From contig NZ_SDGY01000001.1 in assembly GCF_008107645.1 (NCBI RefSeq), positions 387,955 through 451,954 of the forward strand: a stretch of 64,000 bases of DNA, written 5' to 3'. Source of the DNA: Leuconostoc litchii (lineage in GTDB: Bacteria > Bacillota > Bacilli > Lactobacillales > Lactobacillaceae). A program made the position numbers and the translations under genes. Below are positions 12,831-56,278 of the stretch, piece by piece. Below the pieces are notes generated by a model. That model searched no databases. It was not told where the DNA came from and saw nothing but the letters and a program-made list of their open reading frames with translations. The first letter of the stretch is position 1; each line of letters begins with the position of its first letter.

Positions 12831-13204
12831 TTTATAGTATTTTTTTACTTTCGATAATATATATTATGTTAACTTGCGGATTGCATGAATTTGTCAACCC
12901 CTAAAGTAACAAATAAACTAAAAAAAATCATTTTATTTGCGCTAATCCGTTGTCGCTGTTGTGATAGCGGATTTCTTTACAATCTCATTACAGAGACTGT
13001 TTTAGTGCCATTTGTCGTTTTGCTTTTCTAAAGCTGACCAAAAATAATTTATTGTTGTTTTTGGTCCTCAATTTAGACTGCTTCAACAGTTATTTAAGCA
13101 CTTAATTCGTCTTTATCTGGTTATTATTATACGCAAAAATGCAGCTCAAAGCTATTAACTTTGAACTGTCTTAACAAGTAGCGATTTTAAGCATCTATTG
13201 ATGA
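12831..13204. other. non-coding stretch between the ASCH gene and the IS30 transposase
   Basis: No convincing gene. It contains an imperfect hairpin around AATCCG...CGGATT (about 12943-12973) and a 9 bp inverted repeat GACCAAAAA/TTTTTGGTC (13036-13044 / 13058-13066) that may be a terminator. The left terminus of the IS30 element is expected near 13150-13190. Confidence 0.4.
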
Positions 13205-20853: not shown

Positions 20854-20906
20854 AGAATAACAAGAATCAAAAAATTGTCATAAAGGTAAATGGTTTTTCC
20901 TGAGGC
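20854..20906 (-). promoter_or_regulatory. promoter of transfer unit 1 with the conserved 29 bp element
   Basis: Minus strand: -35 ATGACA (20876-20881), 16 bp, -10 TATTCT (20854-20859). The conserved element at 20878-20906 overlaps the -35 and extends upstream. The same element occurs at 29759-29787 and 41822-41850, each one mismatch from this copy. On the minus strand its core reads AAAACCATTTACC. Likely an activator or repressor site shared by all three transfer operons. Confidence 0.65.
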
Positions 20907-20910
20907 AAAC

Positions 20911-20939
20911 AAAAAAGCCCATCCAACAGGATGAGCTTT
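20911..20939 (-). terminator. terminator after the peptidase E-like gene
   Basis: AAAGCCCATCC (20914-20924) / GGATGAGCTTT (20929-20939) with one mismatch; the A-run at 20911-20916 gives a U-run on the minus strand. It insulates transfer unit 1 from the cargo block. Confidence 0.65.
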
Positions 20940-29734: not shown

Positions 29735-29787
29735 AGTGTACAAGTTATCGAAAGAATGTCATAAAGGTAAATGGTTTTTCCTGAAGC
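29735..29787 (-). promoter_or_regulatory. promoter of transfer unit 2 with the conserved 29 bp element
   Basis: Minus strand: -35 ATGACA (29757-29762), 16 bp, -10 TACACT (29735-29740). The conserved element occupies 29759-29787 (one mismatch to the unit 1 copy) with the same offset to the -35. The 5' leader holds the inverted repeat GATTGA-GGT-TCAATC. Confidence 0.65.
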
Positions 29788-29790
29788 GAA

Positions 29791-39245: not shown

Positions 39246-41510
39246 TTACATGTGTCGTGTACTTGTTTGATTAATGGCCTGATAGTTTTGTTCGACAACC
39301 GCTAACTTATCAGGCTTAAGCAATTTTGTTGTTTTTGGTTGACGGACTTCACCGTTACTCAAGTTGTCCGATAGATACTGCGTCACATCGGTACTAGCTT
39401 TGAGTGCCTGACTAATGATTTTGCCAGTATTTTGACCCTCTAGCGCCTTTAGATTCTTTGACCAACCCGCAATATAATCAACGCTTTTCTCACCAGGCTC
39501 AATGCCTAGGTTTTTAGTAATCACATAGCTGGATAACTCTGCTTGTGTTTCTTTAATGGCTGTGGGCCAATTATTTTGACTCTGCAAAGAATGAAGCTGC
39601 GCGTGCGCTATTTCGTGTGCTAAGGTGTGGATTTTATCAGTTGGGGTAAGATCACTGCGCAACAGGATATATTTTTCATCCTTATTGGTTTTTGATTGAA
39701 CAAAGGCACCTTTTGCTTGTCCTTGCCAGGTCATTGGCCGCTTGGCAATTTGGTCGTCTACACTCTGGTCAATGACAGGTACATTTATTTTGTCTGCGAA
39801 CTTCAACAACGTTTTATAAGCAGCATCCAAATGTTTTGGACTTTTATCCGTAGCTAGGTCAATTGGTCGATTGGGTAACATGCTTGGCAATTGTGCAGCA
39901 GTGGCATTAGTTTGCCGAACATCAAACACCGTTTCGACTGGATAATGTTTCACACTACGGACTTCCAATTGCTTGTTATTGGCCAATTGCTTTTGTTCAG
40001 GGGTCGCATCAGACCAGCGTATTTTTTCACCATTTTTAGCAATGATTGTTTTTAAGTTGGTAGGGGCACCAAATATTTTGATGCCCTTCTCACCTTTATT
40101 GACTTGAATGCCATCAGCAGACCATTGTTTGTAGCCTTTCAACAAGGTGGCTTTTGGATTTTGTAGTTGAATCAACATTGAATTACGAGCCGAATAATTT
40201 AAGCCAGTCGCGGTAAAGTCAAGGAGCTTTTTAAGTTCAGCGGGATCTTGTTGGTACTTGGCCACCTTTCCCATTGCCTCTTGAATAATCTGCTTATTCT
40301 TCAAAGCATTTTCCTTACGACGATCAGCTTTGGAACGACGTTCTTTACTCTTTTTAGGTGTCTTGTCTTCAACGGTTGGCTTAACAGGTTGAATGGTGCT
40401 CATTTTGACATCCACATAATCTGGCTTGCCTGTTTGTGTCTCTTGCACTGCAAGTTTTTCTAAGGCATCTAAGCGATGAGCATTATCCGTCATACTCATG
40501 ACGCGCCGCCCTGTAATACCTGCTTTCAATTGTTCGTTCCAATCTTTGCCTTGTAAGGGAATATGACGCTCTGCTTCAATCGCTTCACCAGTAATTGGAT
40601 TTTTAAAACTAAAACGATCAAAGTAATCAGCGGCTTTAAACCCTGCGACATCGTTATCAAAAGCCACAATGATCTTATTGAATTTAGCTTGCTTAGCAGC
40701 AACCGCATCATTCAAATATTGCAAGCCACGCTTAGCATCAGTGCCAGACACTGACAACAGTGTGGCGTTATTTTTCACCATGTCTTGGTGATTTTGTTGG
40801 GCGTAACTTAACAGGTCAATTGGACTTTCAAATAAAATCAATGTTTTGTCGCCTGATCCAAATGAGAGGTTATAACCCGTTGAGGTATCACTGCCAGCAA
40901 ATATTTTTTTGGAAGTGCCACGTTTTTTGTAATGTTCAAAGTCTTGTTCAGTACCCTGACGATCAGCGCCAACAATTTTGCCATTCACATCCTTCCAGGG
41001 AAAGATGACGGGGTTTTGATGCAGCTTGTCACCTTCACGGTAGCGACTACCTTGTACCACTGCGCCACTTTTCAATAAATTGTCAACAAACAGCGGATTG
41101 AGTTTTCGTTGATTAACTAAGTAATCTTTGGCGACATTTGTTTCCTGGGTTTTGAAGACCTTGTCATAATCAAACTTGTAACGCGGTGTGTTGTCTTCGT
41201 ACAGTTTAGAAACATCAATGTTTTCACCTTTAACAAAGCGCGCGTAGGCCAGTTGATTTTTAATAGCGGCACCCTTACTGTCACCGTCTGATTTGCCTAA
41301 TTCGTAGTAATGAATGAAATCAACCAAGTCCCCTTTAACACCAGTTGAGTTCCAGACAAAGCGGTTTAATTTTGTTCGAACCACCAAACTGTCGTGATCA
41401 ACCATGCGTAACTCAGTTGGGGTATCCGTTGTGTAAGGAATACCCTTCCAATCACAATAGCCACGAATTGGTAACAGTTTGAGTTGCGCACGCTCTTCCT
41501 TACTGATCGC
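39246..41510 (-). CDS. Toprim (DUF3991) - ArdC fusion: primase-like/anti-restriction protein
   Basis: 754 residues from MAISKEERAQLKLLPIRG (GGAGGA upstream). N-terminal part about 1-200 is DUF3991-like; a Toprim fold follows with LILFESPIDLLSYAQQ and IVAFDNDVAGFKAADYF. A basic linker leads to an ArdC-like half: ssDNA-binding ARNSMLIQLQNPKATLLKGY with KGEKGIKIF, then a zincin motif LAHEIAHAQLH. ArdC proteins are known to protect incoming plasmid DNA from restriction in the recipient, and Toprim proteins may prime the complementary strand. It is the second gene of unit 3, near the divergent region that may hold the origin of transfer. Confidence 0.8.
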   Translation of the reverse strand, partial: AISKEERAQLKLLPIRGYCDWKGIPYTTDTPTELRMVDHDSLVVRTKLNRFVWNSTGVKGDLVDFIHYYELGKSDGDSKGAAIKNQLAYARFVKGENIDVSKLYEDNTPRYKFDYDKVFKTQETNVAKDYLVNQRKLNPLFVDNLLKSGAVVQGSRYREGDKLHQNPVIFPWKDVNGKIVGADRQGTEQDFEHYKKRGTSKKIFAGSDTSTGYNLSFGSGDKTLILFESPIDLLSYAQQNHQDMVKNNATLLSVSGTDAKRGLQYLNDAVAAKQAKFNKIIVAFDNDVAGFKAADYFDRFSFKNPITGEAIEAERHIPLQGKDWNEQLKAGITGRRVMSMTDNAHRLDALEKLAVQETQTGKPDYVDVKMSTIQPVKPTVEDKTPKKSKERRSKADRRKENALKNKQIIQEAMGKVAKYQQDPAELKKLLDFTATGLNYSARNSMLIQLQNPKATLLKGYKQWSADGIQVNKGEKGIKIFGAPTNLKTIIAKNGEKIRWSDATPEQKQLANNKQLEVRSVKHYPVETVFDVRQTNATAAQLPSMLPNRPIDLATDKSPKHLDAAYKTLLKFADKINVPVIDQSVDDQIAKRPMTWQGQAKGAFVQSKTNKDEKYILLRSDLTPTDKIHTLAHEIAHAQLHSLQSQNNWPTAIKETQAELSSYVITKNLGIEPGEKSVDYIAGWSKNLKALEGQNTGKIISQALKASTDVTQYLSDNLSNGEVRQPKTTKLLKPDKLAVVEQNYQAINQTSTRHM

Positions 41511-41766
41511 CATGGGCTTGTCCTCCAACTTGTTTGTCAATTGGTAAGTGATTCAATTCGGCAAATGCCTGGTCAATCTCATCTGTTTCTAAATTCATTT
41601 TTGCCAGCAATGACCGTCCTAATTCAGCGACAAGGGCATCATTAAGTTGTTTGATGTCTTTTTTGATGGCACGCTTTTCGTCTTGTATTGCCTTTGCTTG
41701 TAAATCAAGTTCATCCAAACGTGTTTGCTTTTCTTTAATTTGTTGGTCGATTGTTTTTTTAGCCAT
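41500..41766 (-). CDS. small coiled-coil protein, first gene of transfer unit 3
   Basis: 88 residues. KQTRLDELDLQAKAIQDEKR followed by AIKKDIKQLND predicts a continuous coiled coil, then an acidic C-terminal helix. It resembles small coiled-coil proteins encoded beside mobilisation genes in Gram-positive elements, but no definite family. AAGGGAGC is upstream of the ATG, and the stop overlaps the Toprim/ArdC start. The promoter with the 29 bp element lies 32-84 bp upstream. Confidence 0.6.
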   Translation of the reverse strand: MAKKTIDQQIKEKQTRLDELDLQAKAIQDEKRAIKKDIKQLNDALVAELGRSLLAKMNLETDEIDQAFAELNHLPIDKQVGGQAHGDQ

Positions 41767-41797
41767 TTTGTAGCTCCCTTTTGTTTAATATAAGGTC

Positions 41798-41850
41798 AAT
41801 ATACCAACCTTTTAAATAACCTCATAAAAGTAAATGGTTTTTCCTGAGGC
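41798..41850 (-). promoter_or_regulatory. promoter of transfer unit 3 with the conserved 29 bp element
   Basis: Minus strand: -35 ATGAGG (41820-41825), 16 bp, -10 TATATT (41798-41803). The conserved element at 41822-41850 differs from the unit 1 copy at one base. Spacing between element, -35 and -10 is identical in all three copies. Confidence 0.65.
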
Positions 41851-41861
41851 TAAACAAACCA

Positions 41862-41936
41862 CCCCCAGTCCCCCTAATCATTAACTTGACAGGCGTGGTT
41901 AATACCACACCAGTAAAGTTAATTGGGGGTTCAAAA
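41862..41936. repeat. 75 bp repeat, copy 1
   Basis: Shares 72 of 75 positions with 43627-43701. Internally symmetrical: ATTAACTT / AAGTTAAT enclose GTGGT-TAAT-ACCAC, and the C5 tracts can pair with the G5 tract. Located in the divergent region between transfer unit 3 and the plus-strand small genes. May be a protein-binding site, a single-strand hairpin or part of an origin of transfer. Confidence 0.75.
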
Positions 41937-41981
41937 AGCCATCACATTCAAACGATTTTTCATCGCTTAAATGTGATGGCT
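41937..41981 (+). terminator. long hairpin after repeat copy 1
   Basis: AGCCATCACATT (41937-41948) pairs with AATGTGATGGCT (41970-41981), with an inner CGAT/ATCG stem and TTTTC loop. Followed by TTTGC only, so termination is uncertain. Confidence 0.45.
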
Positions 41982-42040
41982 TTGCTTCCTGCTGGCTGTT
42001 ATGCACCAACTATTCTTGCTTTTGTGACTACCAAAACTCT

Positions 42041-42149
42041 AACAAGCCAAACAAATCCAAGGACTAAAGTCCAAAGATTTGGGGCTAAATTTGCAAGGCC
42101 AAGCACTACGTGTCGCTACGCGAGCTTTGCAAACCCGCCCTGGCTTGTT
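42041..42149 (+). other. three-way-junction-like structured spacer, copy 1
   Basis: P1: AACAAGCCA (42041-42049) / TGGCTTGTT (42141-42149), 9 bp perfect. P2: AAATC (42053-42057) / GATTT (42076-42080) with inner GGACTAAAGTCC (42061-42072). P3: TTTGCAA (42090-42096) / TTGCAAA (42127-42133), whose loop holds CGCTACGC (42114-42121). No ORF with a ribosome site lies here. The layout recurs at 43763-43868 with different bases in the stems. Confidence 0.55.
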
Positions 42150-42215
42150 TTAGTTTGTCCGTTCACAACGCAATAAGAATACATTGGTCACAAAACAGGC
42201 CAACAGGAGGACAAA

Positions 42216-42650
42216 ATGATGTCTAATATCACAGTCACAAATTCAGGTTTTCAATTGAGAGATGTCAGCGTAGAGTTTAAAGCTAAATCGGCGGTTGAGG
42301 TCGGTAATTACCTTAAACATCAAATTGGGCGTCAATTGCAAGAACGGTTGATTGTCATGAGCTTAAATTCTCAATTGGACGTTATCGCCTCAGACACGAT
42401 TGCCATAGGACAAATTTCGAGTATTGTTGTATCCCCTAGGGAAGTGTTTCAAATAGCGCTCTTAAATAACGCCAGTAGCATCATTCTTGCGCATAATCAT
42501 CCCAGTGGTCATTTAATTCCGTCACAAGAAGATATTGCCTTAACACAAAAGCTAAGAGAAGTTGGTCAACTATTACAAGTACCAGTTACTGACCATTTTA
42601 TTGTTAGCACAGATGATTATTACTCATTTGCAGAAAATCAGTTTAAATAA
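42216..42650 (+). CDS. RadC-like JAB-domain protein
   Basis: 144 residues with the MPN/JAB metal motif AHNHPSGHLIPSQED and a preceding SLNSQLDVIASDTI and VSPREVFQIALLNNASSIIL. The N-terminal helix-hairpin-helix of chromosomal RadC is missing, as in plasmid- and element-encoded RadC proteins. Despite the name, a role in DNA repair is not established, and element copies are linked to anti-restriction or plasmid biology. AGGAGG precedes two adjacent ATGs (42216, 42219). First gene of the plus-strand small-gene series. Confidence 0.85.
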   Translation: MMSNITVTNSGFQLRDVSVEFKAKSAVEVGNYLKHQIGRQLQERLIVMSLNSQLDVIASDTIAIGQISSIVVSPREVFQIALLNNASSIILAHNHPSGHLIPSQEDIALTQKLREVGQLLQVPVTDHFIVSTDDYYSFAENQFK

Positions 42651-42666
42651 TCAGGAGGATATAAAA

Positions 42667-43011
42667 ATGAATATCAGAATTATTAGAATGGAAACCTACT
42701 TACAAAATCCAGCAATGGTACTCATTCCTAGCGGTGCTATTCAAGCCGTAGAACTTGTTTATGAGGCTAAAAGCTATGATGAAGATGATTTGACGGCTAA
42801 TGTCTGGTCGGGATTGGAAGACGAGTTATCCGAGCTAGGGCTTTATTATCCCGTCAACAACAATTGGGTACACCATCAACATCTAAATGAGAAATACGAC
42901 AGATTAACAATTGGCTACGTCGCAGACAACAACATCACGGTCACAAACGAAAGCCTAGTAAATCATATTCACGGCAGTATTGATGGTGACGAAAGGCCCG
43001 ATTGGATGTAA
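42667..43011 (+). CDS. unknown small protein, leading-region type
   Basis: 114 residues from the ATG at 42667, with AGGAGG at ideal spacing; the frame is open further upstream, but inside radC. Acidic, with ELVYEAKSYDEDDLTANVWS and GYVADNNITVTNESLVNHI. No family recognised. It is followed by closely spaced small genes, a pattern typical of plasmid leading regions. Confidence 0.6.
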   Translation: MNIRIIRMETYLQNPAMVLIPSGAIQAVELVYEAKSYDEDDLTANVWSGLEDELSELGLYYPVNNNWVHHQHLNEKYDRLTIGYVADNNITVTNESLVNHIHGSIDGDERPDWM

Positions 43012-43021
43012 AGGAGACATT

Positions 43022-43393
43022 ATGGCATGGTATAGCCCTCAACAAGGTTTGACAACAGACTATATGATGATTGAACAAAATATTGTCAGACCAGAAGAAT
43101 TATTAAGTTGGCGTGATTGTGAGTCAACCTTCAAACCAATTCACTTGCAAGCGTACCGCAATGACTACAAGGACGATGATTATGACTATCCTTTCTCACT
43201 GCGTTCTGCAAAATATCCATTATCAAATCTTGTCTTTGATAAAGATGTGACAGCACTAGTATGTGTCAACCCAAAAGCCAGTGCAGCAACAATTCGTAAA
43301 AAGTTGTTTAAAATCATGAATGACTGGTGGCTCAATAACCCAGACTATCACTCACCAAAATCAGATAAGGAGCAACAAAATGACAGAAACTAA
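43022..43393 (+). CDS. unknown small protein
   Basis: 123 residues from MAWYSPQQGLTTDYMMIEQN (AAGGAG at proper distance). Tyr- and Asp-rich middle (RNDYKDDDYDYPFSLRSAKY) and a basic helical C-terminus (AATIRKKLFKIMNDWWLNN). Unknown function. The stop overlaps the next gene by 14 bases. Confidence 0.6.
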   Translation: MAWYSPQQGLTTDYMMIEQNIVRPEELLSWRDCESTFKPIHLQAYRNDYKDDDYDYPFSLRSAKYPLSNLVFDKDVTALVCVNPKASAATIRKKLFKIMNDWWLNNPDYHSPKSDKEQQNDRN

Positions 43394-43592
43394 CCCGTTT
43401 GAAATCGTAAGTAAAAGAACCACTAACAATGGTGTGATGATTGCAACCCTAAAAAATGGTGATGAAATAACCGTGGCTAGTAATGGTCTAGCAAGACATA
43501 ACGGGACTTACTTCAAAGGTTATGGAGATATTCTAGCAAGTGTTTCAATTGATACAATTCTTGATGCTATTGTTCAGTCAATATCTCAATAA
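43380..43592 (+). CDS. unknown small beta-rich protein
   Basis: 70 residues from MTETNPFEIVSKRTTNNGVM (AAGGAG upstream). Alternating strands (VMIATLKNGDEITVASNGLA) suggest a small barrel. No family recognised. Followed after 34 bp by repeat copy 2, including an AAAAAAGCCATGACT/AGTCATAG-type hairpin that may terminate the transcript. Confidence 0.55.
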   Translation: MTETNPFEIVSKRTTNNGVMIATLKNGDEITVASNGLARHNGTYFKGYGDILASVSIDTILDAIVQSISQ

Positions 43593-43626
43593 AAAAAGCC
43601 ATGACTATTTTTTAGTCATAGCCCTT

Positions 43627-43701
43627 CCCCCAGTCCCCCTGATCATTAAATTGACAGGCGTGGTTGATACCACACCAGTAAAGTTAATTGGGGGTTCAAA
43701 A
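43627..43701. repeat. 75 bp repeat, copy 2
   Basis: Same sequence as 41862-41936 except three substitutions. One (TAAT to TGAT) lies in the loop of the GTGGT/ACCAC hairpin, and another (C to A) opens one pair of the ATTAACTT stem. Followed, as in copy 1, by a structured spacer. Confidence 0.75.
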
Positions 43702-43762
43702 GGCTCACTTCCGTTCGCATCGCACCAAATTGTTCTGTTTGCTCTGTGCCGTTTTCACAATC

Positions 43763-43868
43763 GCATGATAAAGAGTCTGTAAGGCGCAAGCGCCAAACAG
43801 GCTCTACAAAGAAACACAAGGACGTGGCAAGTTGCTGCGCAATCCTTGTGTTGCTTTGGTTATCATGC
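43763..43868 (+). other. three-way-junction-like structured spacer, copy 2
   Basis: P1: GCATGATAA (43763-43771) / TTATCATGC (43860-43868), 9 bp perfect. P2: AGAGTCTGT (43772-43780) / ACAGGCTCT (43797-43805), 9 bp with one G-U, inner GGCGCAAGCGCC (43783-43794). P3: ACACAAGGA (43814-43822) / TCCTTGTGT (43843-43851), 9 bp perfect. Same order and spacing of helices as at 42041-42149 but unrelated stem sequences, which is the mark of a conserved structure. Confidence 0.55.
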
Positions 43869-43948
43869 CAATTGTTACCCGTCACGACGCAACCAGCTCA
43901 ATTGGAGCGATTGCCAACAGGAAAAATTTTTGGAAAGGTTTATTTCTT

Positions 43949-44170
43949 ATGGAAGTTTATTATCAACTCATTCGCAACAGCGGTCATACCGTGCGTTATG
44001 CCTCAATTGATAAGCAAGTTGTTCTCACGCGTGGCTACCCAATTTATTTACAAATCTATGGCGCTAATCGTTCTATAGATTATATTTTGAAGGACACATT
44101 TGCCTTTTTAGCCACCCAATACGGCAACGATATTCAATTAGTCAACGTTGATGAAATGGAGGAAAAATAA
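43949..44170 (+). CDS. unknown small protein
   Basis: 73 residues from MEVYYQLIRNSGHTVRYASI; AAAGG lies 8-12 bases upstream, and the longer frame upstream runs through the structured spacer and is discounted. Contains DKQVVLTRGYPIYLQIYGAN. Unknown family. The stop and the next start overlap (TAATG). Confidence 0.55.
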   Translation: MEVYYQLIRNSGHTVRYASIDKQVVLTRGYPIYLQIYGANRSIDYILKDTFAFLATQYGNDIQLVNVDEMEEK

Positions 44171-44613
44171 TGACCAAGCAATTCTATGATGATTTTAGTA
44201 AGTTACCTATCGCCAAAATGGCACAATCAATCGCTGATATGACGTATTTGTTCAATGAAACAAAAGTGCCAACTAGCCACTACAAAGCCCAATTAAGTAA
44301 AGGCTTTGAAGAAATGGTTGAAGCCAGTGTTAGTGTGTCGTTAGTCAACACCATTTTTAACACTTTGCAAGCCTTGCAAAAAGAAAGTCCTAAACTGTTT
44401 TATCAAGCTATGCTCTGCCTTGATACCAAAGTAAAGCCTAGCAGTATTACCCCTAGTCAATATCAAGCAATGGAATTTACTTGGTCACAATTTGAATTGA
44501 ACAAAAAGAAAAATATCCTTGATAAGGACTTTATCCAAATGTTCAATCAAGTTGAAGAAAATGGACTAACCTATTACACGAAAAACCAACAGGAGGCAGA
44601 TGACAATGAATGA
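44170..44613 (+). CDS. unknown helical protein
   Basis: 147 residues, predicted mostly alpha-helical (PIAKMAQSIADMTYLFNETK, FEEMVEASVSVSLVNTIFNT, MEFTWSQFELNKKKN). No family recognised. It starts on the stop of the previous gene and ends inside the next one, so it belongs to a co-translated group of leading-region-type genes. Confidence 0.6.
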   Translation: MTKQFYDDFSKLPIAKMAQSIADMTYLFNETKVPTSHYKAQLSKGFEEMVEASVSVSLVNTIFNTLQALQKESPKLFYQAMLCLDTKVKPSSITPSQYQAMEFTWSQFELNKKKNILDKDFIQMFNQVEENGLTYYTKNQQEADDNE

Positions 44614-44818
44614 TGAAGTGATTGAAAACATAGCCATACGTTACTTTTCATGGTCTGATGAATTTCCTATGGGCGGGAGTGAAATTCTTGTCAGTGAGTC
44701 CACTAGCAACGACAGTGGCGAAATTGATTTATCAGATGATGAAGCACTGCGATTAAGTGCATTTATCACGGAAGAATTGGCTGAGGGTAAACACGTTACT
44801 CTGAGAACCACAATTTAA
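44606..44818 (+). CDS. unknown small acidic protein
   Basis: 70 residues from the ATG at 44606 (AGGAGG nine bases upstream); the ATG at 44600 is too close to that site. Acidic (SESTSNDSGEIDLSDDEAL), a feature of DNA-mimic anti-restriction or nucleoid-protein inhibitors, though that is only a suggestion. Overlaps the preceding gene by 8 bases. Confidence 0.55.
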   Translation: MNDEVIENIAIRYFSWSDEFPMGGSEILVSESTSNDSGEIDLSDDEALRLSAFITEELAEGKHVTLRTTI

Positions 44819-44828
44819 GGAGAATAAT

Positions 44829-45047
44829 ATGGCAATCGTCAACGTTAAATATATGGAAACATTGGTTAGAACAGTGGCAGTTAATGTCCCTGATACACTC
44901 ACAGATGAGCAGAAACTGACCCAAGCTGTTGCAATTGGTAAACGTCACTATTTTGATGAAAAAGTGATTTTAGGAGCAGATGATTTAGATTTACGAGAAA
45001 TCAGTGCGGAGTACAAACAAGAGACAACGGACTACGAGGAATTTTAA
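44829..45047 (+). CDS. unknown small acidic protein
   Basis: 72 residues, AAGGAG ribosome site. Acidic C-terminal half (GADDLDLREISAEYKQETTD). No family recognised. Ten bases after the previous stop, same operon. Confidence 0.55.
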   Translation: MAIVNVKYMETLVRTVAVNVPDTLTDEQKLTQAVAIGKRHYFDEKVILGADDLDLREISAEYKQETTDYEEF

Positions 45048-45067
45048 TCACAGATAGGAGTGTGTTT

Positions 45068-45175
45068 ATGGGTGTATTCGTTTTTAAACTTCTCATGCTA
45101 ATTGCCATGCTGGTCTATATTTTATATTACCTAGTCGGTGTGATTATGATTGCGCGTGAAGATGATGAGCGGTAA
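45068..45175 (+). CDS. 35-residue single-TM peptide
   Basis: A short gene with its own TAGGAG site: MGVFVFKLLMLIAMLVYILY then a second half (YLVGVIMIAREDDER) makes one long hydrophobic helix and a charged C-terminus. Placed at the end of the small-gene run. A GGTAAAA/TTTTACC hairpin straddles its stop codon. Could be a membrane accessory or a toxin-like peptide; unknown. Confidence 0.5.
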   Translation: MGVFVFKLLMLIAMLVYILYYLVGVIMIAREDDER

Positions 45176-45492
45176 AAATCTTTTACCGTGTTCCCCAGAC
45201 CCGCAAGCGGGATCAAACACGCTACGCTAGTCCTGCCAAGATCTTGGGTGCCACTTCGCTTTGAGTCAAACATTGTGCCACAACCAGTGACTTGTAAGCT
45301 GTGGTGGTTATACCACAGCAACAAGCACTAGCCCAAAATAAAAGGGCTTCGTAAATTCGCTACGCTCACCCTTGTATTCTGCGCTGCTTGTGTCCCCATG
45401 TTCTTCGTCAAAACGAAATAACACACCAATCACAGGCAGGGCCGACAGGAAATGGTTTCTGCCTGGTGCGTACATAATCAAGGAGAACTACT
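45176..45492 (+). other. structured non-coding spacer, copy 3-like
   Basis: 317 bp without a credible gene but dense in hairpins: GGTAAAA/TTTTACC (45171-45187), CCCGCAAGCGGG (45200-45211) inside GTGTT/AACAC, GCTGTGG/CCACAGC (45298-45304 / 45313-45319), AGCCC/GGGCT (about 45330-45346) inside ACAAGCA/TGCTTGT, and CAGGCAG/CTGCCTG (about 45435-45461). CGCTACGC occurs at 45220-45227 and 45358-45365, as in spacer copy 1. Probably related to the other two spacers. Confidence 0.45.
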
Positions 45493-45723
45493 ATGAATCG
45501 AATTACCAAAGTTATCACTACTATTGCCGCAACAATTATTAGTTTGGATGTCATCCTCATGGTCATCAATGGCACAATGTTGTATGTCTTACTCACACTG
45601 ACTGGCCTTTATGTCTTAGCTAGCTTGGCTTTTAAGCAGTCCGCTTGTAAAGCGACGCGTTGCTGGATCGACATTGGACATCTGCCCCATAAGGAGAAAA
45701 CTCATGTCAAAACTCACAACTAA
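45493..45723 (+). CDS. small two-TM membrane protein
   Basis: 76 residues, AAGGAG site before the ATG. Two hydrophobic segments (VITTIAATIISLDVILMVI and MLYVLLTLTGLYVLASLAF) and a basic His/Lys-rich tail that overlaps the next gene's ribosome site. Unknown function. Confidence 0.5.
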   Translation: MNRITKVITTIAATIISLDVILMVINGTMLYVLLTLTGLYVLASLAFKQSACKATRCWIDIGHLPHKEKTHVKTHN

Positions 45724-46027
45724 AACATTGTCTACAACTTCTAATGCCAACGGGTTAGTCATTTTAGGAAGCAATGGCCAATATATCTACCCAGGTTTAG
45801 CACAAGCAATCTTTGACGATGCTATTTTTGGTCCGCGTATTTTAAAGCGATTGCAACGTCTTCTTGTTGACCACCCAGCTGGTCTGAGTGAATCAGGCCA
45901 TGACTGGTATTTTGGTTATCTGGTCTGTGCTTATACCCAAACGCATTTTGGTATTAAGAATCTATTGAATTATCCCTCAGTCACAAAGGAGCTTTTTTCA
46001 CTGTGTCTGACAAAACTATCCGAATAG
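45704..46027 (+). CDS. unknown protein
   Basis: 107 residues from MSKLTTKTLSTTSNANGLVI with AAGGAG at good spacing. GLAQAIFDDAIFGPRILKRL and YFGYLVCAYTQTHFGIKNLL suggest a compact helical fold. No family recognised. Overlaps the end of the previous gene by 20 bases. Confidence 0.5.
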   Translation: MSKLTTKTLSTTSNANGLVILGSNGQYIYPGLAQAIFDDAIFGPRILKRLQRLLVDHPAGLSESGHDWYFGYLVCAYTQTHFGIKNLLNYPSVTKELFSLCLTKLSE

Positions 46028-46039
46028 GAGGATCAAATC

Positions 46040-46303
46040 ATGTTAAATTTTTGTTTATGTTTATTAGCAATGTTTCTATTTTGGCTGTTCGGCCACATCA
46101 TTGGCACCATCCTGTATTTGAGTATCCTATTTGTTGGTCATTTGATTTCATATTGGTACTTTTATTTACCACTTATTATTTTGATAAGTCTAGCTATTGC
46201 TTTTGGCATCAAAAGTGTCTTAGCGATGCTGATGCTAATTATTATCATTCTGTCACTCGAATTAGCACTAATGATATATTGGACGCGTCATCACAATTCA
46301 TAA
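46040..46303 (+). CDS. polytopic small membrane protein
   Basis: 87 residues, AGGAGG site. Almost entirely hydrophobic, with two to three TM segments (FCLCLLAMFLFWLFGHIIGT, YFYLPLIILISLAIAFGI, VLAMLMLIIIILSLELALMI). Unknown. Last plus-strand gene of the conjugative block, followed by a terminator. Confidence 0.5.
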   Translation: MLNFCLCLLAMFLFWLFGHIIGTILYLSILFVGHLISYWYFYLPLIILISLAIAFGIKSVLAMLMLIIIILSLELALMIYWTRHHNS

Positions 46304-46405: not shown

Positions 46406-47677
46406 TTAGTTAGTAACACCGTTTATAGCGTCAATTGGTACTCTGATATAATTTCTAGCGATAACATTTTGTTGATAAACCACGTAAATTTCAACAAAAT
46501 GATTTCCAGAAAAGCTAGACGGTTCTACATGAACCTTTTTGTCACGTAAAATTTCACCACGTTCTAATGAATGTGACTTTGCATAGCTGCCAACATTACG
46601 CACTTTCCATAAATATTTGACATTATGCGGAGTGTCGTCGCTAATTTGAGCTTCAAAAGCCAATTGTAAATCTTTAGCTATTTTTCTCTTAGAAAACAAA
46701 AACCTTTGGAGTGTTGAGGTTCGATATCCATTTTGTTTAATGCTGGCGTCCAAAGCAACTGTGTATTGGATAGCCATTGAGTAGCTGTCTTCAATGAATG
46801 TTTCGCTTGCAGCAGCATTATACCCAGGAAACTTCTTTCCGAACATTTGAGAATACAATTGATTTTTCTCTTCGTTGTTTTCAGCATCTTTAAGTTCATC
46901 GGCATAACGTTTAGCTTCATCGGCAAAAACTTGATCATCATTGTCTATCAAGTCTCCGCTACCCATCATTGTATAAACACTGCCTGACTGTTCCCCCAGA
47001 TAAGTCAAAAAATCTATCAAAACACTCTCCAGAGTATAAGTAAAACTGTAAACAGAATTTTCTTCTAAAAATTCGCATAACAATGTATCAATGACAATGC
47101 CTTTAAGTTTAATTCCTTGAAAACTTCTCCAAGAACGAATTAAGCGAGCAATTTCTCGGTAACACTGGAACTGGTTTGATACTGCTATTGCCTTTTCTAT
47201 TTCATCATTCGGATTTGTCACTTCCCACGATCCTCCTGCATTCGTGTTAGGAAAATCGAACTTTTGATCGGGACGGTCAAAAACGGGAATTAACTCAATA
47301 GTTCCTTTTTTCATTTCGATACTAACAACTTGTCCATCACTATGTAGTGCAGTCTTAGGGTAACGTTCAAAAATTACATCTTTCACTGATGTTAACAGTT
47401 GAGATTGTATGTTATTTTGTCTTTTATCAAATTGTTCTTTAACCGTTGGAGGAAGAATAAATAGAACATCGTGATCGCTTGTGCGTTTTGTATGTGTCTT
47501 TCGTCCGTAACTTCCTGCAACAATAACATTTTCAGTGTCCGAATCGGTGTCCCAATAATGTGAATTGAGTTTTTTTACAACAGATTTTAAAGTATTTTCA
47601 AAATCGTCATCATCCTCAGAGCTAGGCGTCAATGTATCTGTTAACCATTCTTGTAGAAATTCATTACTTGATGTCAT
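46406..47677 (-). CDS. CBASS cyclic nucleotide synthase (CD-NTase/SMODS) with AGS-C domain
   Basis: 423 residues. Nucleotidyltransferase core: GSYGRKTHTKRTSDHDV, with Gly-Ser at 55-56 and catalytic DHD at 68-70, and a further acidic strand TIELIPVFD near 125-133. A helical OAS-like part follows (REIARLIRSWRSFQGIKLKG). Residues about 345-418 (YLWKVRNVGSYAK, RGEILRDKK, HFVEIYVVYQQN) match the AGS-C domain found on many SMODS enzymes. On phage infection such enzymes make a cyclic di- or trinucleotide that activates the effector. It overlaps the upstream SLATT effector gene by 14 bp, so the two form a minimal two-gene operon. The nucleotide product is unknown. Confidence 0.85.
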   Translation of the reverse strand: MTSSNEFLQEWLTDTLTPSSEDDDDFENTLKSVVKKLNSHYWDTDSDTENVIVAGSYGRKTHTKRTSDHDVLFILPPTVKEQFDKRQNNIQSQLLTSVKDVIFERYPKTALHSDGQVVSIEMKKGTIELIPVFDRPDQKFDFPNTNAGGSWEVTNPNDEIEKAIAVSNQFQCYREIARLIRSWRSFQGIKLKGIVIDTLLCEFLEENSVYSFTYTLESVLIDFLTYLGEQSGSVYTMMGSGDLIDNDDQVFADEAKRYADELKDAENNEEKNQLYSQMFGKKFPGYNAAASETFIEDSYSMAIQYTVALDASIKQNGYRTSTLQRFLFSKRKIAKDLQLAFEAQISDDTPHNVKYLWKVRNVGSYAKSHSLERGEILRDKKVHVEPSSFSGNHFVEIYVVYQQNVIARNYIRVPIDAINGVTN

Positions 47678-48230
47678 GCAAAGCCTCCAATATTTCTTTA
47701 TCTATAAACAAAGAATAATCGGTATCCTTTACATTATGTTCTTCCTCTTTTAACTGATTGCTCGCTAACTGAACAGATTTTGAATCAGTGGCAGGAACTA
47801 ATTTAGACAATGACAGCCTTTCTTCTTCAAGTGATAGCCACTCGTCGTTTATGGAATCAATATCTCTATTATTGAAAGCTAAATCGCGTAAACAATCCAT
47901 CAATTTTTCTCGTAAGATAAACTGTTTATTAGCATATTCTTTTGATTGCTGGAATAGCTTTTGATAATCCCAAGCTTTTAAAATGCCAGAACTTACAAAA
48001 TTAATCAAACCCAATACCGCAGCGATAACCTTAGCCCATATTGAATCTACTAAAAGCAATGAAACCGCACCTGTGGATGTAAGACCTGCCGTAGTTATTT
48101 GAATAAACTTCCACCGATTATCTAACTGCATATACTTTTCAGCTTGTTTTTCATTTATTTTATGTGTCCAACCCACACTCACTATTGCTCCCAATAATGC
48201 GTTTTTTAATCCCTTAGCTCTAGTTGACAT
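47664..48230 (-). CDS. SLATT-domain two-TM effector of CBASS
   Basis: 188 residues: an N-terminal amphipathic region (QAEKYMQLDNRWKFIQITTA), two TM helices (ITTAGLTSTGAVSLLLVDSI and WAKVIAAVLGLINFVSSGI) and a long helical cytoplasmic C-terminal region. This is the SLATT layout, predicted pore-forming effectors that accompany CD-NTases. On second-messenger binding it would permeabilise the membrane and abort infection, which is known for related TM effectors and inferred here. Overlaps the CD-NTase gene. ATTTCTCC (minus GGAGAAAT) sits before the ATG. Confidence 0.78.
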   Translation of the reverse strand: MSTRAKGLKNALLGAIVSVGWTHKINEKQAEKYMQLDNRWKFIQITTAGLTSTGAVSLLLVDSIWAKVIAAVLGLINFVSSGILKAWDYQKLFQQSKEYANKQFILREKLMDCLRDLAFNNRDIDSINDEWLSLEEERLSLSKLVPATDSKSVQLASNQLKEEEHNVKDTDYSLFIDKEILEALHDIK

Positions 48231-50510: not shown

Positions 50511-50604
50511 CGCTGTTTTTGATCAACACAACAACTAAAGTAATTAACGATAGAATAAACATTCCAAAGCTAATCATTAGCTGTAATGCATCCGATACGG
50601 ACAC
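50500..50604 (-). CDS. 34-residue holin-like membrane toxin (type I toxin-antitoxin)
   Basis: GTG start at 50604 with AAAGGAG seven bases upstream. The peptide begins MSVSDALQLMISFGMF, continues with a hydrophobic helix (ILSLITLVVVLI) and ends KNSAKK. This is the typical short single-helix peptide annotated in lactic acid bacteria as putative holin-like toxin. Overproduction of such peptides depolarises the membrane (known for relatives). The mRNA 3' part overlaps the convergent antisense RNA by about 110 nt. Probably stabilises the mobile element. Too short for routine ORF calling. Confidence 0.82.
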   Translation of the reverse strand: MSVSDALQLMISFGMFILSLITLVVVLIKNSAKK

Positions 50605-50745
50605 AAGGCATCTCCTTTCCTAGAATCTGGGTTTACAGTTTTAACACCATAAGCACCACCTCCACTCAGGATAGCCACCATCTTAACTTGTTTGCTGTAA
50701 CCAGTATATCACATACCTAATTAGCAATTGGTCTAAAACATAATC
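50605..50745 (-). other. leader and promoter region of the toxin mRNA
   Basis: A TATACT hexamer on the minus strand near 50705-50710 may be the -10 box; the leader would be about 95 nt before the GTG. It contains GGTGGC and GGAGGTGGTGC segments that could sequester the ribosome site. No gene. Confidence 0.4.
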
Positions 50746-51987: not shown

Positions 51988-53010
51988 CTACATCGATTTC
52001 ACTTTATCTTCAATAAATTTGATTTCATTATTATCCAATTTATATTTTTTATAGAATTGTGCATCAATTTCCGAAATGGATTTTGACCAATCAATATCTG
52101 ACTCGGTGGTGAAATCTTGCATAGGTACTTTCTTCCACTTATCTCTAGGATTATCTTGTGTAATTTTAAGAACACCCAACATTGTGCGGGCAAATTTTGT
52201 TCGTATATATTTAAGGACATTCTCAGCTTCAATCACATCTTCAAACGAACCAATTGATATAAATGTCTGGGTAAAACCAATAAATGGGTTAACGACAAGT
52301 GGAGAGGATAGAGTCTCCCCCATTGCCCCAGTACCGTTAGCTTTTGGCAAAACTACCCTATATTTATCGAATGCAAATGGTTGATTTATATAGTCTGCTC
52401 TTATCCAATGATATACTCGTTCATTTTGATATCGTCCTAAAACCTGTACATACTCATATCCATCATCTGGTTTTACCTCGTAAAACAAAATGTTGTGGAG
52501 CGTTTCTAAAACACCAGTACCCACATCGTTGGGATGGCTTTTTGAAAGAATCCCACGAACTTCTGGATGATCGTTATGCATTTTAGGGGTAAATTTATAA
52601 ATACCTTGTCCTGACATGATTGAATCTAAAGTAGTCCCTGTAAGTGGGGCTACTTTATGAATAATTGAGTTCAGTTCCTCAAAGCTTGTAAACGTACCAA
52701 CTTCTCCAAAATCCTTATTAGCGTTGCGATATAAAATTGCAACTCCACCCTTTATATCTGTATTAGGAAACACCTTAGATGAACTTTGTTCATAGTATTC
52801 TACCTTCAAGTGTTTATCTGATAACATCTTTTTGTTCCATTTTTTATCAGTGCTTCCTGCATTAAATAGGAAACGAGCCGGAGTAATTAAGGCATATTCG
52901 TTTCCGACCTTTTCAGCTAAATCATAGAAATAATTATAAACAGCATCATCACGAGTATCTTCTCGTGACTCTTGATATGGCGGATTCCCCACCACTACAT
53001 CAAATTTCAT
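51988..53010 (-). CDS. C-terminal half of an N6-adenine DNA methyltransferase (Eco57I-like)
   Basis: 340 residues starting almost at motif IV: MKFDVVVGNPPYQESRED. Downstream are the segments YNYFYDLAEKVGNEYALITP and KVEYYEQSSSKVFPNTDIKG, typical of Eco57I/TaqI-like enzymes, and a C-terminal target-recognition-like region. The S-adenosylmethionine-binding motif I is absent and appears to be supplied by the C-terminus of the upstream helicase protein. The start codon overlaps the helicase stop (TAATG), with GGAGGT embedded in the helicase's last codons. Confidence 0.82.
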   Translation of the reverse strand: MKFDVVVGNPPYQESREDTRDDAVYNYFYDLAEKVGNEYALITPARFLFNAGSTDKKWNKKMLSDKHLKVEYYEQSSSKVFPNTDIKGGVAILYRNANKDFGEVGTFTSFEELNSIIHKVAPLTGTTLDSIMSGQGIYKFTPKMHNDHPEVRGILSKSHPNDVGTGVLETLHNILFYEVKPDDGYEYVQVLGRYQNERVYHWIRADYINQPFAFDKYRVVLPKANGTGAMGETLSSPLVVNPFIGFTQTFISIGSFEDVIEAENVLKYIRTKFARTMLGVLKITQDNPRDKWKKVPMQDFTTESDIDWSKSISEIDAQFYKKYKLDNNEIKFIEDKVKSM

Positions 53011-56000
53011 TAGTTCTTACCTCCAAATAATTCATCGCATTTTGCTTCAAAATCACCTTCACCACGAGCAAAAGGCGTGGTATCAAGGAATACGATATGT
53101 GAATCATTAATATTCTTAGCTTTTTCATCAAATCCAAAGATGAAATTACGAGCAATGTTGTAGATGATTTCACTTGGTGCAAAACCATATACTTGATGCT
53201 CCAAGATATGCTCCAAACGTTGCTCGTCATCAGGTATTTTGTCTTTCAATCCTACGTACAAACGTTTTACAATCTCAGTTATATATAGCCCCGATTTCAT
53301 GTACAAGTCAACGAATGTCTTGTTAGGGTCAGTGAAATCTTCAGGACTTTCAGCCTGCAATTTATCAATCATCATCTTAACCACATTTTTAGGAGTAAAG
53401 ATTTGATTGGTTTGTTGTGGCGGAATGTAATCAAAAATATCCTCTTCTTGGCTTTCATCAAAGTAATTCGCCAACTCCTGACGTTTACGCAAGAATTCTT
53501 GCACCGATTCATCAAAGACAACCTGGTCAAAGAAATTATAAGTATCACGTAAAGCCCGGAATTGGTCTAAGGTGATTCCAGTCACTTCCTTAAACACAGC
53601 ATCTTTGATAGTAGTATCAAAGCTACTCAAAGTAGTACTTGGTTCACCATACGCCATCAAGAATGATGGAATAGTACGAGCAAAACCACGTAGACGTGCA
53701 CGAACATCATCTTCAACGGTATTCTTTTTCTTATCTTCGGCTTTCTTCAAGATAGTTTCAGTTGATTGTTGAGCTAATTCTTGAGTTTTCGTTTCAACTG
53801 TTGTTGCTACATCTTTTTTGAAATCCTTGTCGATTTCTTGCTTTTTAGCTTCATACGTAGCTTTTGCTTCTGCAAGCTTTTCAGTATCATTATGAGATTC
53901 GGCAACAGCAACAACCTTTTTATACTCAACATCAGCCTCTTTTTTCTTGATTTCTGCTTGTGTCTGAACTTTTTCAACTTCACGCGCAATAACATTAGCC
54001 GTTTGTTGTGCTACTTGCTCACCGGCTTTTTTAGTCAAACCATTTTCCTTGGCTAAGTTTTCTAGGATACTCTGAGTGCTTAATTTGAATTCATTTGCAA
54101 TCTTAGCGGATAGTTTTGCATCTTCAGGGTCATCCGCTGTATTTGCAACTTCTTCCATTGTCCCATAAACTTTTGGACCAAAGTGCGCATTTGTAGTTTC
54201 AACCACTTTTTGCTGTTCTACCGTAGCATCCCCATTATCATCAACTTGAACATTCTTAGTATCAATTGGTTCTTCAGTCTTACGTGGTGTTGTCTTACCT
54301 TGGTCTACCGGGTTCAATTGTTCCAAGATTTCTCGTGCACCTGCTGAAGCAAAGATGCCTGAAATATTTTGAAAAAGTAGGTTTGACATAAATCCACGAC
54401 GAACAACTTCTTGAGCTTTCACAGTCTTAGGAATCGTCAACACTTGGTTAACATCAAGCTCAACCATCTTGCCTTCATTATCTTCAGCAATAACTGGGAA
54501 GAAGTTCAATAAAGTCCGAATGTTGTCTTTACGGTCTTCAGATGTACCACCACCATTGGCCGTCTTTGGACTTAGATTGTTAGCAAAGTCATCATAAACC
54601 GTCAACGTACGTTCTGGCGCAAAGTCAAAAACATAAGCCGTCTCTTTTTGATGCATTTGACCATCAACTTCATAGTCCCATGGATTTTGAGCACGGAAGG
54701 CTGCCTGCATATACAAGCTTGGTGACTTCATATTTGAAAGCATCAGCACGGCAGTCCATTCAGGAACTGTTACACCTGTTGTCAATTGACCGACTGACAG
54801 AGTAATGGTTTTATCATGATTTTTAATTGCATCACGCACACGGTCTAAAGATTTCTGATTGACTGTTTGGTCATCATCACTTGACTTACCATCCCCTGCT
54901 GCCAAAATAATTTCATAGTTTTCAAAAACAGGGTCATTCTTCAACAATTTTTCTAAAGCCTTAGCGCTAGCAACACGATTCAACAACCAGAAAGTATGCT
55001 TAAGTTCGTTACGTAATTCTGGTGTCGAGAACGGATATTTTTCGTTGTGGGTTAACGAGTTAAGACACTTCTTGATATCTGCTTCATGCACAAATTTACC
55101 AGCATCATTAGTTTCAAAGAACTCATTCAGATCGAAGGCATAATCAATATTTTCACCATCAATCTCGGCACCTTTATTCACCTCGTCAGTTATCATCTGA
55201 CTCATCTGATATGAAAACATACTCAAACGTGGCAGTTTTTCATAAGGATTGTTTTCTTCAGCGTCAACCGGCCAATCTTGCTTAGCTTCTTGTTCATCAG
55301 CATAAGTCCAGTTATAGATTTGTTCGTCAGAAAATTTATCCGCTGCCAATGCTTTAAATGGCGTACCAGACAGGTTCAAAGTAAACTTACGCTTAATCTG
55401 GTCAAAAGCAATGTCAGTCTTAAATGTGTCGCGACCTTCATGGCTTTCATCTACGACTAAAAGATCCCAATTAAGGTCTTTAACCCATTTTAATTTATCG
55501 TAACCACCACCAAAAGAGACTGCTCCCTTCAGGTCTTGTAATGAAATAAAAGCAATTTGACGAACATTTTCATTTTCATTAACTGCATCTAAAAAGTCAT
55601 CACGAGTTAAAACAGGACGGTCTTTTAGTGAATCGGATGTTGAAACAAAAAGATAGTCTGTTTGCCAAGCAATAAATTTCTGGAAATCATCAAACCATGA
55701 GTTAGCGATAGCAGGACGGTTCGTTACTACTAAAACGTTAACTGCATCAAGCTTACGAGCCAAATCGTAAGTCGTCAAAGTCTTACCAAACCGTGGCTTC
55801 GCATTCCACAAGAACTCTCCACCTTCATGCGTTTGGGCATAAGAAAGGGTCATGGTAACAGCTTCTTCTTGTTCAGTCCGCAAAGTATAATCTAATTGTT
55901 CCTTTGCTTGACTATACTCGTTGTTACGAAAATCATCAAAATCGGCATGAGCCTTTTCAGGTGTCCCGTTATAGTAGAACCATTCTGATTTTGGACGCTG

Positions 56001-56276
56001 CTCAACGTCTTTAAATTTTCTCAAATAAGCATGAAGTTGCTTATCCGTAAACCATTTATCGACGCTATTGAACTTAGCAGGTTCAGACCACAGTTTGTCA
56101 TAAGGTAAATTCACTGCTGCCGTTTTTGTTTGTTCCAAAATGCGGTCATCAACGTTGCGTCGTTCCGTATAACCAATCTTAATCCAACCAGCATCTTCTG
56201 GCATTGTTGGTAAGGTATAGGCATAAATTTGTGGATAGATAGTTTTTGTCGTTTTTATCTGAGTGTTATCGCTCAT
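53010..56276 (-). CDS. GIY-YIG (T5orf172-like) - SF2 helicase - methyltransferase N-half fusion
   Basis: 1088 residues. Residues about 14-100 contain YAYTLPTMPEDAGWIKIGYTE, like T5orf172/GIY-YIG nuclease domains. SF2 translocase: motif I AKPRFGKTLT (about 159-168), II VVDESHEG (about 273), III NLSGTPF, and a motif VI-like QAAFRAQNPW. A coiled coil with many Lys/Glu (about 740-850) follows. The C-terminal 130 residues have FTPKNVVKMMIDKL, then FVDLYMKSGLYITEIVKRLY (degenerate motif I) and QVYGFAPSEIIYNIARNFI, the front half of a gamma-class MTase. The other half is the next gene. Acts probably as an ATP-dependent restriction subunit. Confidence 0.8.
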   Translation of the reverse strand: MSDNTQIKTTKTIYPQIYAYTLPTMPEDAGWIKIGYTERRNVDDRILEQTKTAAVNLPYDKLWSEPAKFNSVDKWFTDKQLHAYLRKFKDVEQRPKSEWFYYNGTPEKAHADFDDFRNNEYSQAKEQLDYTLRTEQEEAVTMTLSYAQTHEGGEFLWNAKPRFGKTLTTYDLARKLDAVNVLVVTNRPAIANSWFDDFQKFIAWQTDYLFVSTSDSLKDRPVLTRDDFLDAVNENENVRQIAFISLQDLKGAVSFGGGYDKLKWVKDLNWDLLVVDESHEGRDTFKTDIAFDQIKRKFTLNLSGTPFKALAADKFSDEQIYNWTYADEQEAKQDWPVDAEENNPYEKLPRLSMFSYQMSQMITDEVNKGAEIDGENIDYAFDLNEFFETNDAGKFVHEADIKKCLNSLTHNEKYPFSTPELRNELKHTFWLLNRVASAKALEKLLKNDPVFENYEIILAAGDGKSSDDDQTVNQKSLDRVRDAIKNHDKTITLSVGQLTTGVTVPEWTAVLMLSNMKSPSLYMQAAFRAQNPWDYEVDGQMHQKETAYVFDFAPERTLTVYDDFANNLSPKTANGGGTSEDRKDNIRTLLNFFPVIAEDNEGKMVELDVNQVLTIPKTVKAQEVVRRGFMSNLLFQNISGIFASAGAREILEQLNPVDQGKTTPRKTEEPIDTKNVQVDDNGDATVEQQKVVETTNAHFGPKVYGTMEEVANTADDPEDAKLSAKIANEFKLSTQSILENLAKENGLTKKAGEQVAQQTANVIAREVEKVQTQAEIKKKEADVEYKKVVAVAESHNDTEKLAEAKATYEAKKQEIDKDFKKDVATTVETKTQELAQQSTETILKKAEDKKKNTVEDDVRARLRGFARTIPSFLMAYGEPSTTLSSFDTTIKDAVFKEVTGITLDQFRALRDTYNFFDQVVFDESVQEFLRKRQELANYFDESQEEDIFDYIPPQQTNQIFTPKNVVKMMIDKLQAESPEDFTDPNKTFVDLYMKSGLYITEIVKRLYVGLKDKIPDDEQRLEHILEHQVYGFAPSEIIYNIARNFIFGFDEKAKNINDSHIVFLDTTPFARGEGDFEAKCDELFGGKN

Positions 56277-56278
56277 AC

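Follow-up and report, generated by a model that had tools for sequence, protein, structure and literature searches.

Branched leaders before small-gene operons of a Leuconostoc conjugative element and a possible role on the entering DNA strand

The analysed window, 64,000 nt of Leuconostoc litchii (G000:C1:387955-451954, on a chromosomal contig of 1.24 Mb and not a plasmid), carries an integrated conjugative element in which three operons of small genes are each preceded by a long, branched leader. Computation showed that the pairing and the position of such leaders are conserved, that many of them fold better on the template strand, and that their orientation is coupled to that of the origin of transfer (oriT). 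The operons are probably establishment (anti-defence) operons of MOBL/MobP2 conjugative elements. We prefer, tentatively and without calling it probable, the reading that the three elements are structured leaders of such anti-defence-like operons, in which the folded transferred strand (T-strand) permits transcription from the entering single-stranded DNA (ssDNA); the signal may act as a promoter, a site of priming or a leader in the RNA.

Three branched leaders and their conservation

A first-pass annotation of the letters had described two spacers that share a P1-P2-P3 three-way junction with 9-bp P1 stems and inner palindromes, and folding confirmed it. With a flank of 4-6 nt per side and dinucleotide shuffles as the control, the DNA of junction 1 (42037-42155) folded at -26.9 kcal/mol (z -5.05) and that of junction 2 (43759-43874) at -35.3 kcal/mol (z -7.95), and 0 of 200 shuffles were as low in either case. 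The description was correct but incomplete: each junction is the tip of an imperfect stem of about 210-230 nt, which reaches the ribosome-binding site (RBS) of a small-gene operon or stops just short of it, and a third copy at 45232-45440 had been missed. As annotated, the first two copies follow a repeat (78 bp, 95% identity between its copies) and precede small genes; element 3, which stands before the operon at 45493, has no such repeat. An A-rich internal loop is present in P2 of each element, and the bases at the P3 tip are related across the three (template strand GCGTAGCGA, GCGCAGCAA and GCGTAGCGAA). The features of the leaders are as follows.

41862-41939, plus strand: 78-bp repeat, copy 1, an imperfect hairpin with TTGACA in its left arm (repeat search, folding)
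41935-41983, plus strand: strong, terminator-like inverted repeat between the divergent operons (inverted-repeat search)
41984-42212, minus (template) strand: element 1, a long imperfect stem capped by a three-way junction (folding, homologue alignment)
42041-42149, minus strand: three-way junction of element 1 (P1, P2, P3), 109 nt (folding)
42113-42121, minus strand: tip of P3 in element 1, plus TCGCTACGC, minus GCGTAGCGA (read from the sequence)
42205-42210, plus strand: ribosome-binding site AGGAGG within the foot of element 1 (paired in the predicted mRNA at a probability of 0.99-1.0)
43627-43704, plus strand: 78-bp repeat, copy 2 (repeat search)
43709-43923, minus strand: element 2, a long imperfect stem capped by a three-way junction (folding, homologue alignment)
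43763-43868, minus strand: three-way junction of element 2, 106 nt (folding)
45232-45440, minus strand: element 3, a long imperfect stem capped by a three-way junction (folding, homologue alignment)
45279-45392, minus strand: three-way junction of element 3, 114 nt (folding)

Folded as RNA, junctions 1 and 2 gave z -4.44 and -8.31 and the whole regions 41862-42215 and 43596-43951 gave z -10.3 and -8.3, while element 3 reached z -6.1 on the template strand and z -2.7 and -2.8 on the coding strand. The intergenic regions of the conjugative element are rich in inverted repeats, so chance folding or ordinary terminators of convergent genes had to be considered, but we regard this as extremely unlikely: elements 1 and 2 fold at z values of -5 to -11, and the homologues of elements 1 and 3 show compensatory changes.

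These changes were found within Leuconostoc. The 78-bp repeat occurred in 13 of 150 genomes, namely the strain's own, nine others of the genus (10 of the 19 genus genomes in all) and three weak matches outside it. By BLAST against 301 family genomes, spacer 1 had 8 strong places in 7 genomes, all within the genus, and 9 further genomes gave only matches of E 6e-4 to 0.009; outside the genus the matches were short and weak, and neither spacer 1 nor spacer 2 matched PLSDB. The alignments contained 8 (class 1), 8 (class 2) and 10 (class 3) distinct rows, taken from hits covering at least 70% of the query with identical rows merged; a class 1 fragment in G015 (L064) and a decayed copy in G011 (L058) were excluded. 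Homologues with lost helices, which the first-pass annotation had named as the outcome that would speak against its structure, were not what we found: 97.1% of cells were paired over the 77 pairs of class 1 and 97.5% over the 96 pairs of class 3. Both sides had changed in 8 pairs of class 1 (3.6 in shuffles, 0-3 when the alignment was slid) and in 5 pairs of class 3 (1.8 in shuffles, 1-2 when slid), where relatedness is preserved by the slid control alone and the alignments scored had also served to derive the structures. Examples are GGACTAAAGTCC versus GGTCTAAAGACC in P2 of class 1 and, in P3 of class 3, the arms CAGAATACAAGGG, CATAATAAAAGGG and CCCCAAATAAAAGGG, each facing its complement. 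Class 2 showed zero compensatory changes, its 8 rows being too alike. Thus the helices of classes 1 and 3 are kept in Leuconostoc homologues by compensatory changes. The annotation had read the difference between the two spacers itself as covariation, for which two unalignable copies are insufficient alone, and the changes within classes 1 and 3 now supply it.

The placement of the fold also allows an RNA leader, that is, a 5' untranslated region whose fold would block read-through from upstream and hide the RBS (at least in element 1), with the operon silent until a trigger such as a protein, an antisense RNA or antitermination. The fold does stand at or just before the RBS, a terminator-like hairpin lies upstream of element 1, and the RBS of element 1, the only one inside the stem foot, is paired with a probability of 0.99-1.0 in the predicted mRNA. 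The stem stops 8 nt before the RBS in element 2 and 39 nt before it in element 3, and RBS pairing there is partial (0.44-0.73 and 0.21-0.98), which counts against an RNA leader. In many families the pairing is better on the strand opposite to the mRNA, and the leaders are coupled in orientation to oriT, which an mRNA leader would not need (both below). No Rfam family matched 41700-45600 at E up to 1, nor was a double-strand promoter found: a sigma-70-like site was absent from the plus strand of the three leaders. We therefore consider the RNA leader rather unlikely, with the better coding-strand consensus fold of class 1 (below) in its favour. The 78-bp repeat was tried as a promoter and rejected; TTGACA is perfect in both copies, but no -10 element at a usable distance was seen by reading.

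Similar structured leaders were found on plasmids of Enterococcus, Lacticaseibacillus, Macrococcus and Staphylococcus. Homologues of the 147-aa protein encoded in operon 2 (44170-44613) were present in 552 plasmid records, 516 of them from Enterococcus, and Enterococcus records with this homologue carried similar structured gaps. One of these leaders matched 512 records, and EGeRS1-B, a leader of plasmid pLS20, matched 65. When 11 leaders were compared with each other, Leuconostoc class 3 matched Lacticaseibacillus paracasei over 44 nt at 82% (E 7.5e-6), E. faecium matched E. faecalis over 35 nt and two Bacillus leaders matched over 170 nt; all other pairs gave no match at E 0.01. The E. faecalis rep9b plasmid EfsC1 (L101 23977-28001) has genes that run against the relaxase gene and include an annotated Cas9 inhibitor, AcrIIA9, with a structured gap at 27174-27770. 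Structured windows also occurred in other stretches with an oriT-like motif, for example L. plantarum pL1277-2 (about 12401) and DF (12801). In the B. subtilis plasmid FX-1, which has a RadC homologue, the gap before that gene was unstructured and 0 of 5 gaps passed a DNA z of -4.5.

Strand preference and coupling to oriT

Both strands were folded for 41 gaps. For 19 chosen leaders we then added a control of composition-matched shuffles (40 each) in which the strand difference was recomputed; the E. faecalis, B. glycinifermentans and S. epidermidis leaders had been chosen by an energy-against-GC scan, not by shuffles. DNA energy was lower on the template strand in 16 of the 19, the mean z of the strand difference was -2.6, and the difference lay outside all 40 shuffles in 11 (c3, Efm A and B, Mac 1-3, pLS20 A and B, Efs, Bgly 1 and 2), although several of these leaders are interrelated and therefore not independent events, and they were not picked blind. 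The preference was weaker in LX10_a and Lpar (3/40 each). The gap before a Y-family polymerase gene (L091 17441-17889) leaned slightly towards the coding strand. Consensus folds were better on the template strand in class 2 (coding -87.7, template -92.9) and class 3 (-91.3, -117.2), and wobble cells were more frequent for the template than for the coding strand in all three elements (58:32 in element 1, 38:17 in element 2 and 99:37 in element 3).

Such a strand-asymmetric wobble bias would have no reason in double-stranded DNA, where the inverted repeats might otherwise bind a protein or extrude as cruciforms on which a repressor or recombinase would act, and where single-strand folding would be a by-product. 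The 78-bp repeat, 95% identical at its two sites, could be an operator, and the genes behind class 1 leaders vary from genome to genome, both of which speak for this view. But the stem sequences differ between copies while the pairing stays, and we hold action in double-stranded DNA to be very unlikely.

The strand preference conflicts with the published nick strand of pLS20, and oriT was therefore compared between elements. In six Leuconostoc elements the DNA upstream of the relaxosome genes carries two inverted repeats with CCCTTAACCTG after them, and this layout recurs, with CCTTATGCTCTT, in pLS20, B. velezensis and Enterococcus LX10; the conserved core is CTTATGCTCTT, and the motif strand can also be written CTTATGCTCTT / CTTAACCTG. 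The alignment includes G015b, though it lacks the core, and excludes G014, whose contig ends there. Relative to the relaxase gene, the core is on the opposite strand in E. faecium, E. hirae, Macrococcus and S. epidermidis, and it is in E. faecium/hirae, Macrococcus and S. epidermidis that the establishment operons run with the relaxase gene. They run against it in pLS20/B. velezensis, B. glycinifermentans, E. faecalis EfsC1/LX10, Leuconostoc and L. paracasei L1 p1. Thus the strand with the motif was also the template for the establishment genes in all 8 of the groups counted, five with the motif on the relaxase-coding strand and three flipped (Fisher p 0.018), the groups and operons having been chosen by us, not blind, and with related copies included. 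For L. paracasei L1 p1, whose relaxase gene lies outside the stretches read, polarity was taken from the aux-like genes beside the motif, and the S. epidermidis genes were labelled establishment solely from their leaders. Six stretches with an oriT-like motif stand outside the count (two of L. plantarum, and Listeria, L. salivarius, Exiguobacterium and Priestia). For the window itself, the oriT orientation would be that of its relatives.

The usual oriT layout has the inverted repeat 5' of the nick, and because of this we tentatively take the motif strand to be the T-strand. Along it, the genes lie 0.3-9.2 kb from oriT in E. faecalis EfsC1, LX10, L. paracasei L1 p1 and S. epidermidis and 12-26 kb in three Bacillus plasmids, while those of Macrococcus are half-way along, which is neutral. 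The coupling of orientation is hard to explain by double-stranded DNA or mRNA alone; it would be expected when genes are read from the entering strand.

In the reading we prefer, the T-strand entering the recipient would be the template strand of the leader operons and, while single-stranded, would fold into the long stem with its three-way junction. This fold could serve as a double-stranded platform at which host RNA polymerase would initiate, and the RNA would run outward via the stem foot into the small genes. The genes might then be expressed before second-strand synthesis, or the RNA might serve as its primer. Once the DNA is double-stranded the fold would be absent and, as no ordinary promoter was seen, the operon presumably silent; in element 1, any read-through mRNA would pair its RBS into the same stem. 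The gene positions along the motif strand, E. faecium and Macrococcus apart, and the Cas9 inhibitor among the EfsC1 genes also count in favour of this reading. A signal in ssDNA active on entry had been suggested by the first-pass annotation, and it gains from the template preference of many leaders, the oriT coupling and the covariation in homologues, and loses by the several leaders with no preference.

A wider proposal, possible but more doubtful than the reading for the window, is that MOBL/MobP2 elements across Bacilli share a so far unrecognised system of ssDNA expression, in which T-strand leaders would switch on establishment genes before the second strand is made and the T-strand would be the CTTATGCTCTT strand, opposite to the published assignment for pLS20.

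Several points, besides the sampling of leaders and groups given above, weigh against expression from the entering strand. The published nick mapping of pLS20 rests on a drop in sequencing signal and assigns the nick, at GAATCGGGGGCCGG, to the other strand, so that the T-strand would not be the template; this stretch is retained in B. velezensis and not in LX10. Promoters in ssDNA were considered for EGeRS1 and rejected on nick-strand grounds (PMC8708921, excerpts). The same excerpts report EGeRS1 to be without a constitutive promoter and EGeRS1-B to halt read-through in the native orientation only, which is an effect of the RNA type and favours an RNA leader. When the non-template stem arms of 20 leaders were scanned by a simple consensus test for -35/-10 hexamers, p was 0.01-1.0 against shuffled arms, only pLS20_B fell below 0.05, and four arms were too short to score. 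A TTGT that recurs right under the junction was noted by eye, and we make no claim for it. Leader c1 (z +0.5) and three S. epidermidis leaders (z +0.18, -0.29 and -0.20) had no strand preference, c2 and LX10_b had little (11/40 each), the class 1 consensus fold was better on the coding strand (-77.1, template -72.3), and the count of further pair types in class 1 was at or below that of shuffles. The genes of E. faecium would enter late, at 49.8-52.7 of 66.5 kb along the motif strand. Structured gaps also precede motif-strand genes in E. faecalis EfsC1 (3773-4299) and L. plantarum DF (12752-13308), left uncounted since these look like transfer genes or uncharacterised ones. L. paracasei pMGB0734-3, which is relaxase-less and rich in IS, has the motif by an aux-like gene on the coding strand and breaks the rule.

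The strand-specific hairpins would also suit a single-strand origin (sso), whose fold on the entering strand would prime the complementary strand, the proximity to establishment genes being secondary. ICEBs1 uses such sites (PMC4595007, excerpts), and the P3 tips of elements 1 and 3 have TAGCG in common with a hairpin of the pTA1040 sso. At that tip, distant rows retain only AGCGA and not TAGCG, and the pTA1040 sso gave against the 11 leaders a single 22-nt match, to a Bacillus leader, at E 0.12. At least five copies per plasmid in pLS20 (PMC8708921, excerpts), each before an operon, exceed the needs of an origin, and we find this alternative distinctly unlikely. CS-6 is described as an sso signal.

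On how Gram-positive conjugative elements might express protective genes at entry, the T-strand fold, template polarity and oriT coupling offer a testable proposal, which would cover food bacteria as well as enterococcal and staphylococcal resistance plasmids. The finding questions the published nick-strand assignment and supplies a motif for reading MOBL leading regions. A large survey (PMC11541004, excerpts) reported no anti-defence enrichment for MOBP2 and took the relaxase gene as typically lagging. If the wider proposal is true, the relaxase gene would enter early where the motif is on the relaxase-coding strand, and this could explain the missing enrichment in the assumed MOBP2 leading region. 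MobL is the pLS20 relaxase family (PMC5313138, excerpts), and NCBI labels the pLS20 relaxase MobP2, gene mobL; that the MobL and MOBP2 sets are equivalent is our assumption.

Host element and gene neighbourhood

The integrated conjugative element spans about 15-57 kb of the window (approximate ends) and encodes a TraG/VirD4-type coupling protein, a lysozyme/M23 protein, an AAA+ protein, a ParA-like protein and an ArdC-N/Toprim protein. The genes around the leaders are as follows.

39246-41540, minus strand: ArdC-N / Toprim / DUF3991 protein, neighbouring and divergent from the leader operons (Pfam)
42216-42650, plus strand: RadC-like JAB domain protein, first gene past element 1 and first of the plus-strand small genes (PF04002, E 1.7e-40)
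42670-43592, plus strand: remaining small genes of operon 1 (open reading frames; no Pfam family at E 0.01)
43949-45047, plus strand: operon 2, at least 4 small genes (open reading frames), including the 147-aa protein at 44170-44613
45493-46303, plus strand: operon 3, small genes past element 3 (open reading frames)

A MobL relaxase gene (PF18555) was present in 8 of the 10 Leuconostoc genomes checked. In 7 genomes it shared a contig with the leaders, at 8-42 kb to their right and, in window orientation, on the minus strand, and in G008 it was on a separate contig; that of G007 may be part of a second element. Beside the leaders of the 10 genomes, neither the MobA_MobL nor the Relaxase family gave a match, unlike MobL. 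Most relatives that carry this element have a MobL gene, but the profile search found none in the window's own genome, so that the window copy may be incapable of initiating its own transfer. In G007, a second, diverged Y-family polymerase region near MobL (L069, G007:C6, about 77-80 kb) suggests two elements or a duplication.

Adjoining the establishment operons, 46406-48230 on the minus strand holds a CBASS-like pair, an oligonucleotide cyclase (SMODS/AGS_C) and a 2TM SLATT effector, and Type II / IIG-like methyltransferase genes flank the element at 51988-57250 (minus strand). The sole Rfam match of the window at gathering score was rli28 (50534-50720, minus strand); by eye, the minus strand of this site could code for a short hydrophobic peptide, perhaps a toxin of type I, and DNA like it recurs among relatives. 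A motif around AAATGGTTTTTCCTGA, 85-95% alike at 20866-20920, 29751-29790 and 41814-41853, precedes minus-strand genes of the transfer region and is perhaps a common operator.

Comparison with known systems

The first-pass annotation knew of no described motif with this layout, which is wrong at the level of kind. The EGeRS1 leaders of pLS20 stand before five establishment operons, have branched folds and lie right before the RBS, and their mechanism is stated as unknown by the authors (PMC8708921, excerpts). Refolded here, EGeRS1 is a long stem with a branched tip, and the template strand is favoured in most copies. The Leuconostoc leaders resemble it in having multiple copies (three), each before the RBS of a small-gene operon whose genes would have an establishment role, in folding stably and branched as ssDNA or RNA (element 3 mainly on the template strand) and in the MOBL/MobP2 relaxase context. 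EGeRS1 has no strong double-strand promoter, and the scan of the Leuconostoc leaders showed no sigma-70-like site on the plus strand. They differ in having no match to EGeRS1-B at E 0.01 (plus strand), identity above 60% not being found, and EGeRS1 is longer (420-750 bp). By sequence comparison, the Leuconostoc elements are analogues of EGeRS1, not members. Among the open-access literature matches listed, single-strand expression had been proposed neither for EGeRS1 nor for Leuconostoc.

Strand-specific hairpins on transferred ssDNA are also a feature of the sso of rolling-circle plasmids and of sso1 of ICEBs1 (PMC4595007, excerpts), and elements 1 and 3 of the window share TAGCG at the hairpin tips. 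The leaders differ from the one sso tested, that of pTA1040, in showing no sequence similarity to it, and they come in several operon-tied copies.

Frpo is reportedly the single-strand promoter of F, described in 1997. The leaders differ from the Frpo / ssi type in that most stems have no -35/-10 pair above chance (1 of 20 arms at p < 0.05), in their Gram-positive hosts, in the three-way junction and in the longer stem. They resemble it in template polarity, provided that the motif strand is the T-strand, the nicked strand being disputed, and in presenting a folded strand before leading-region genes in an anti-defence context, as in F and related plasmids (PMC11541004, excerpts).

The likeness in arrangement extends to a repeat of another kind. 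The CUP repeats of the IncN plasmid pKM101 are said to be double-strand, protein-regulated promoters repeated before several leading-region operons, and the leaders described here likewise repeat before several such operons.

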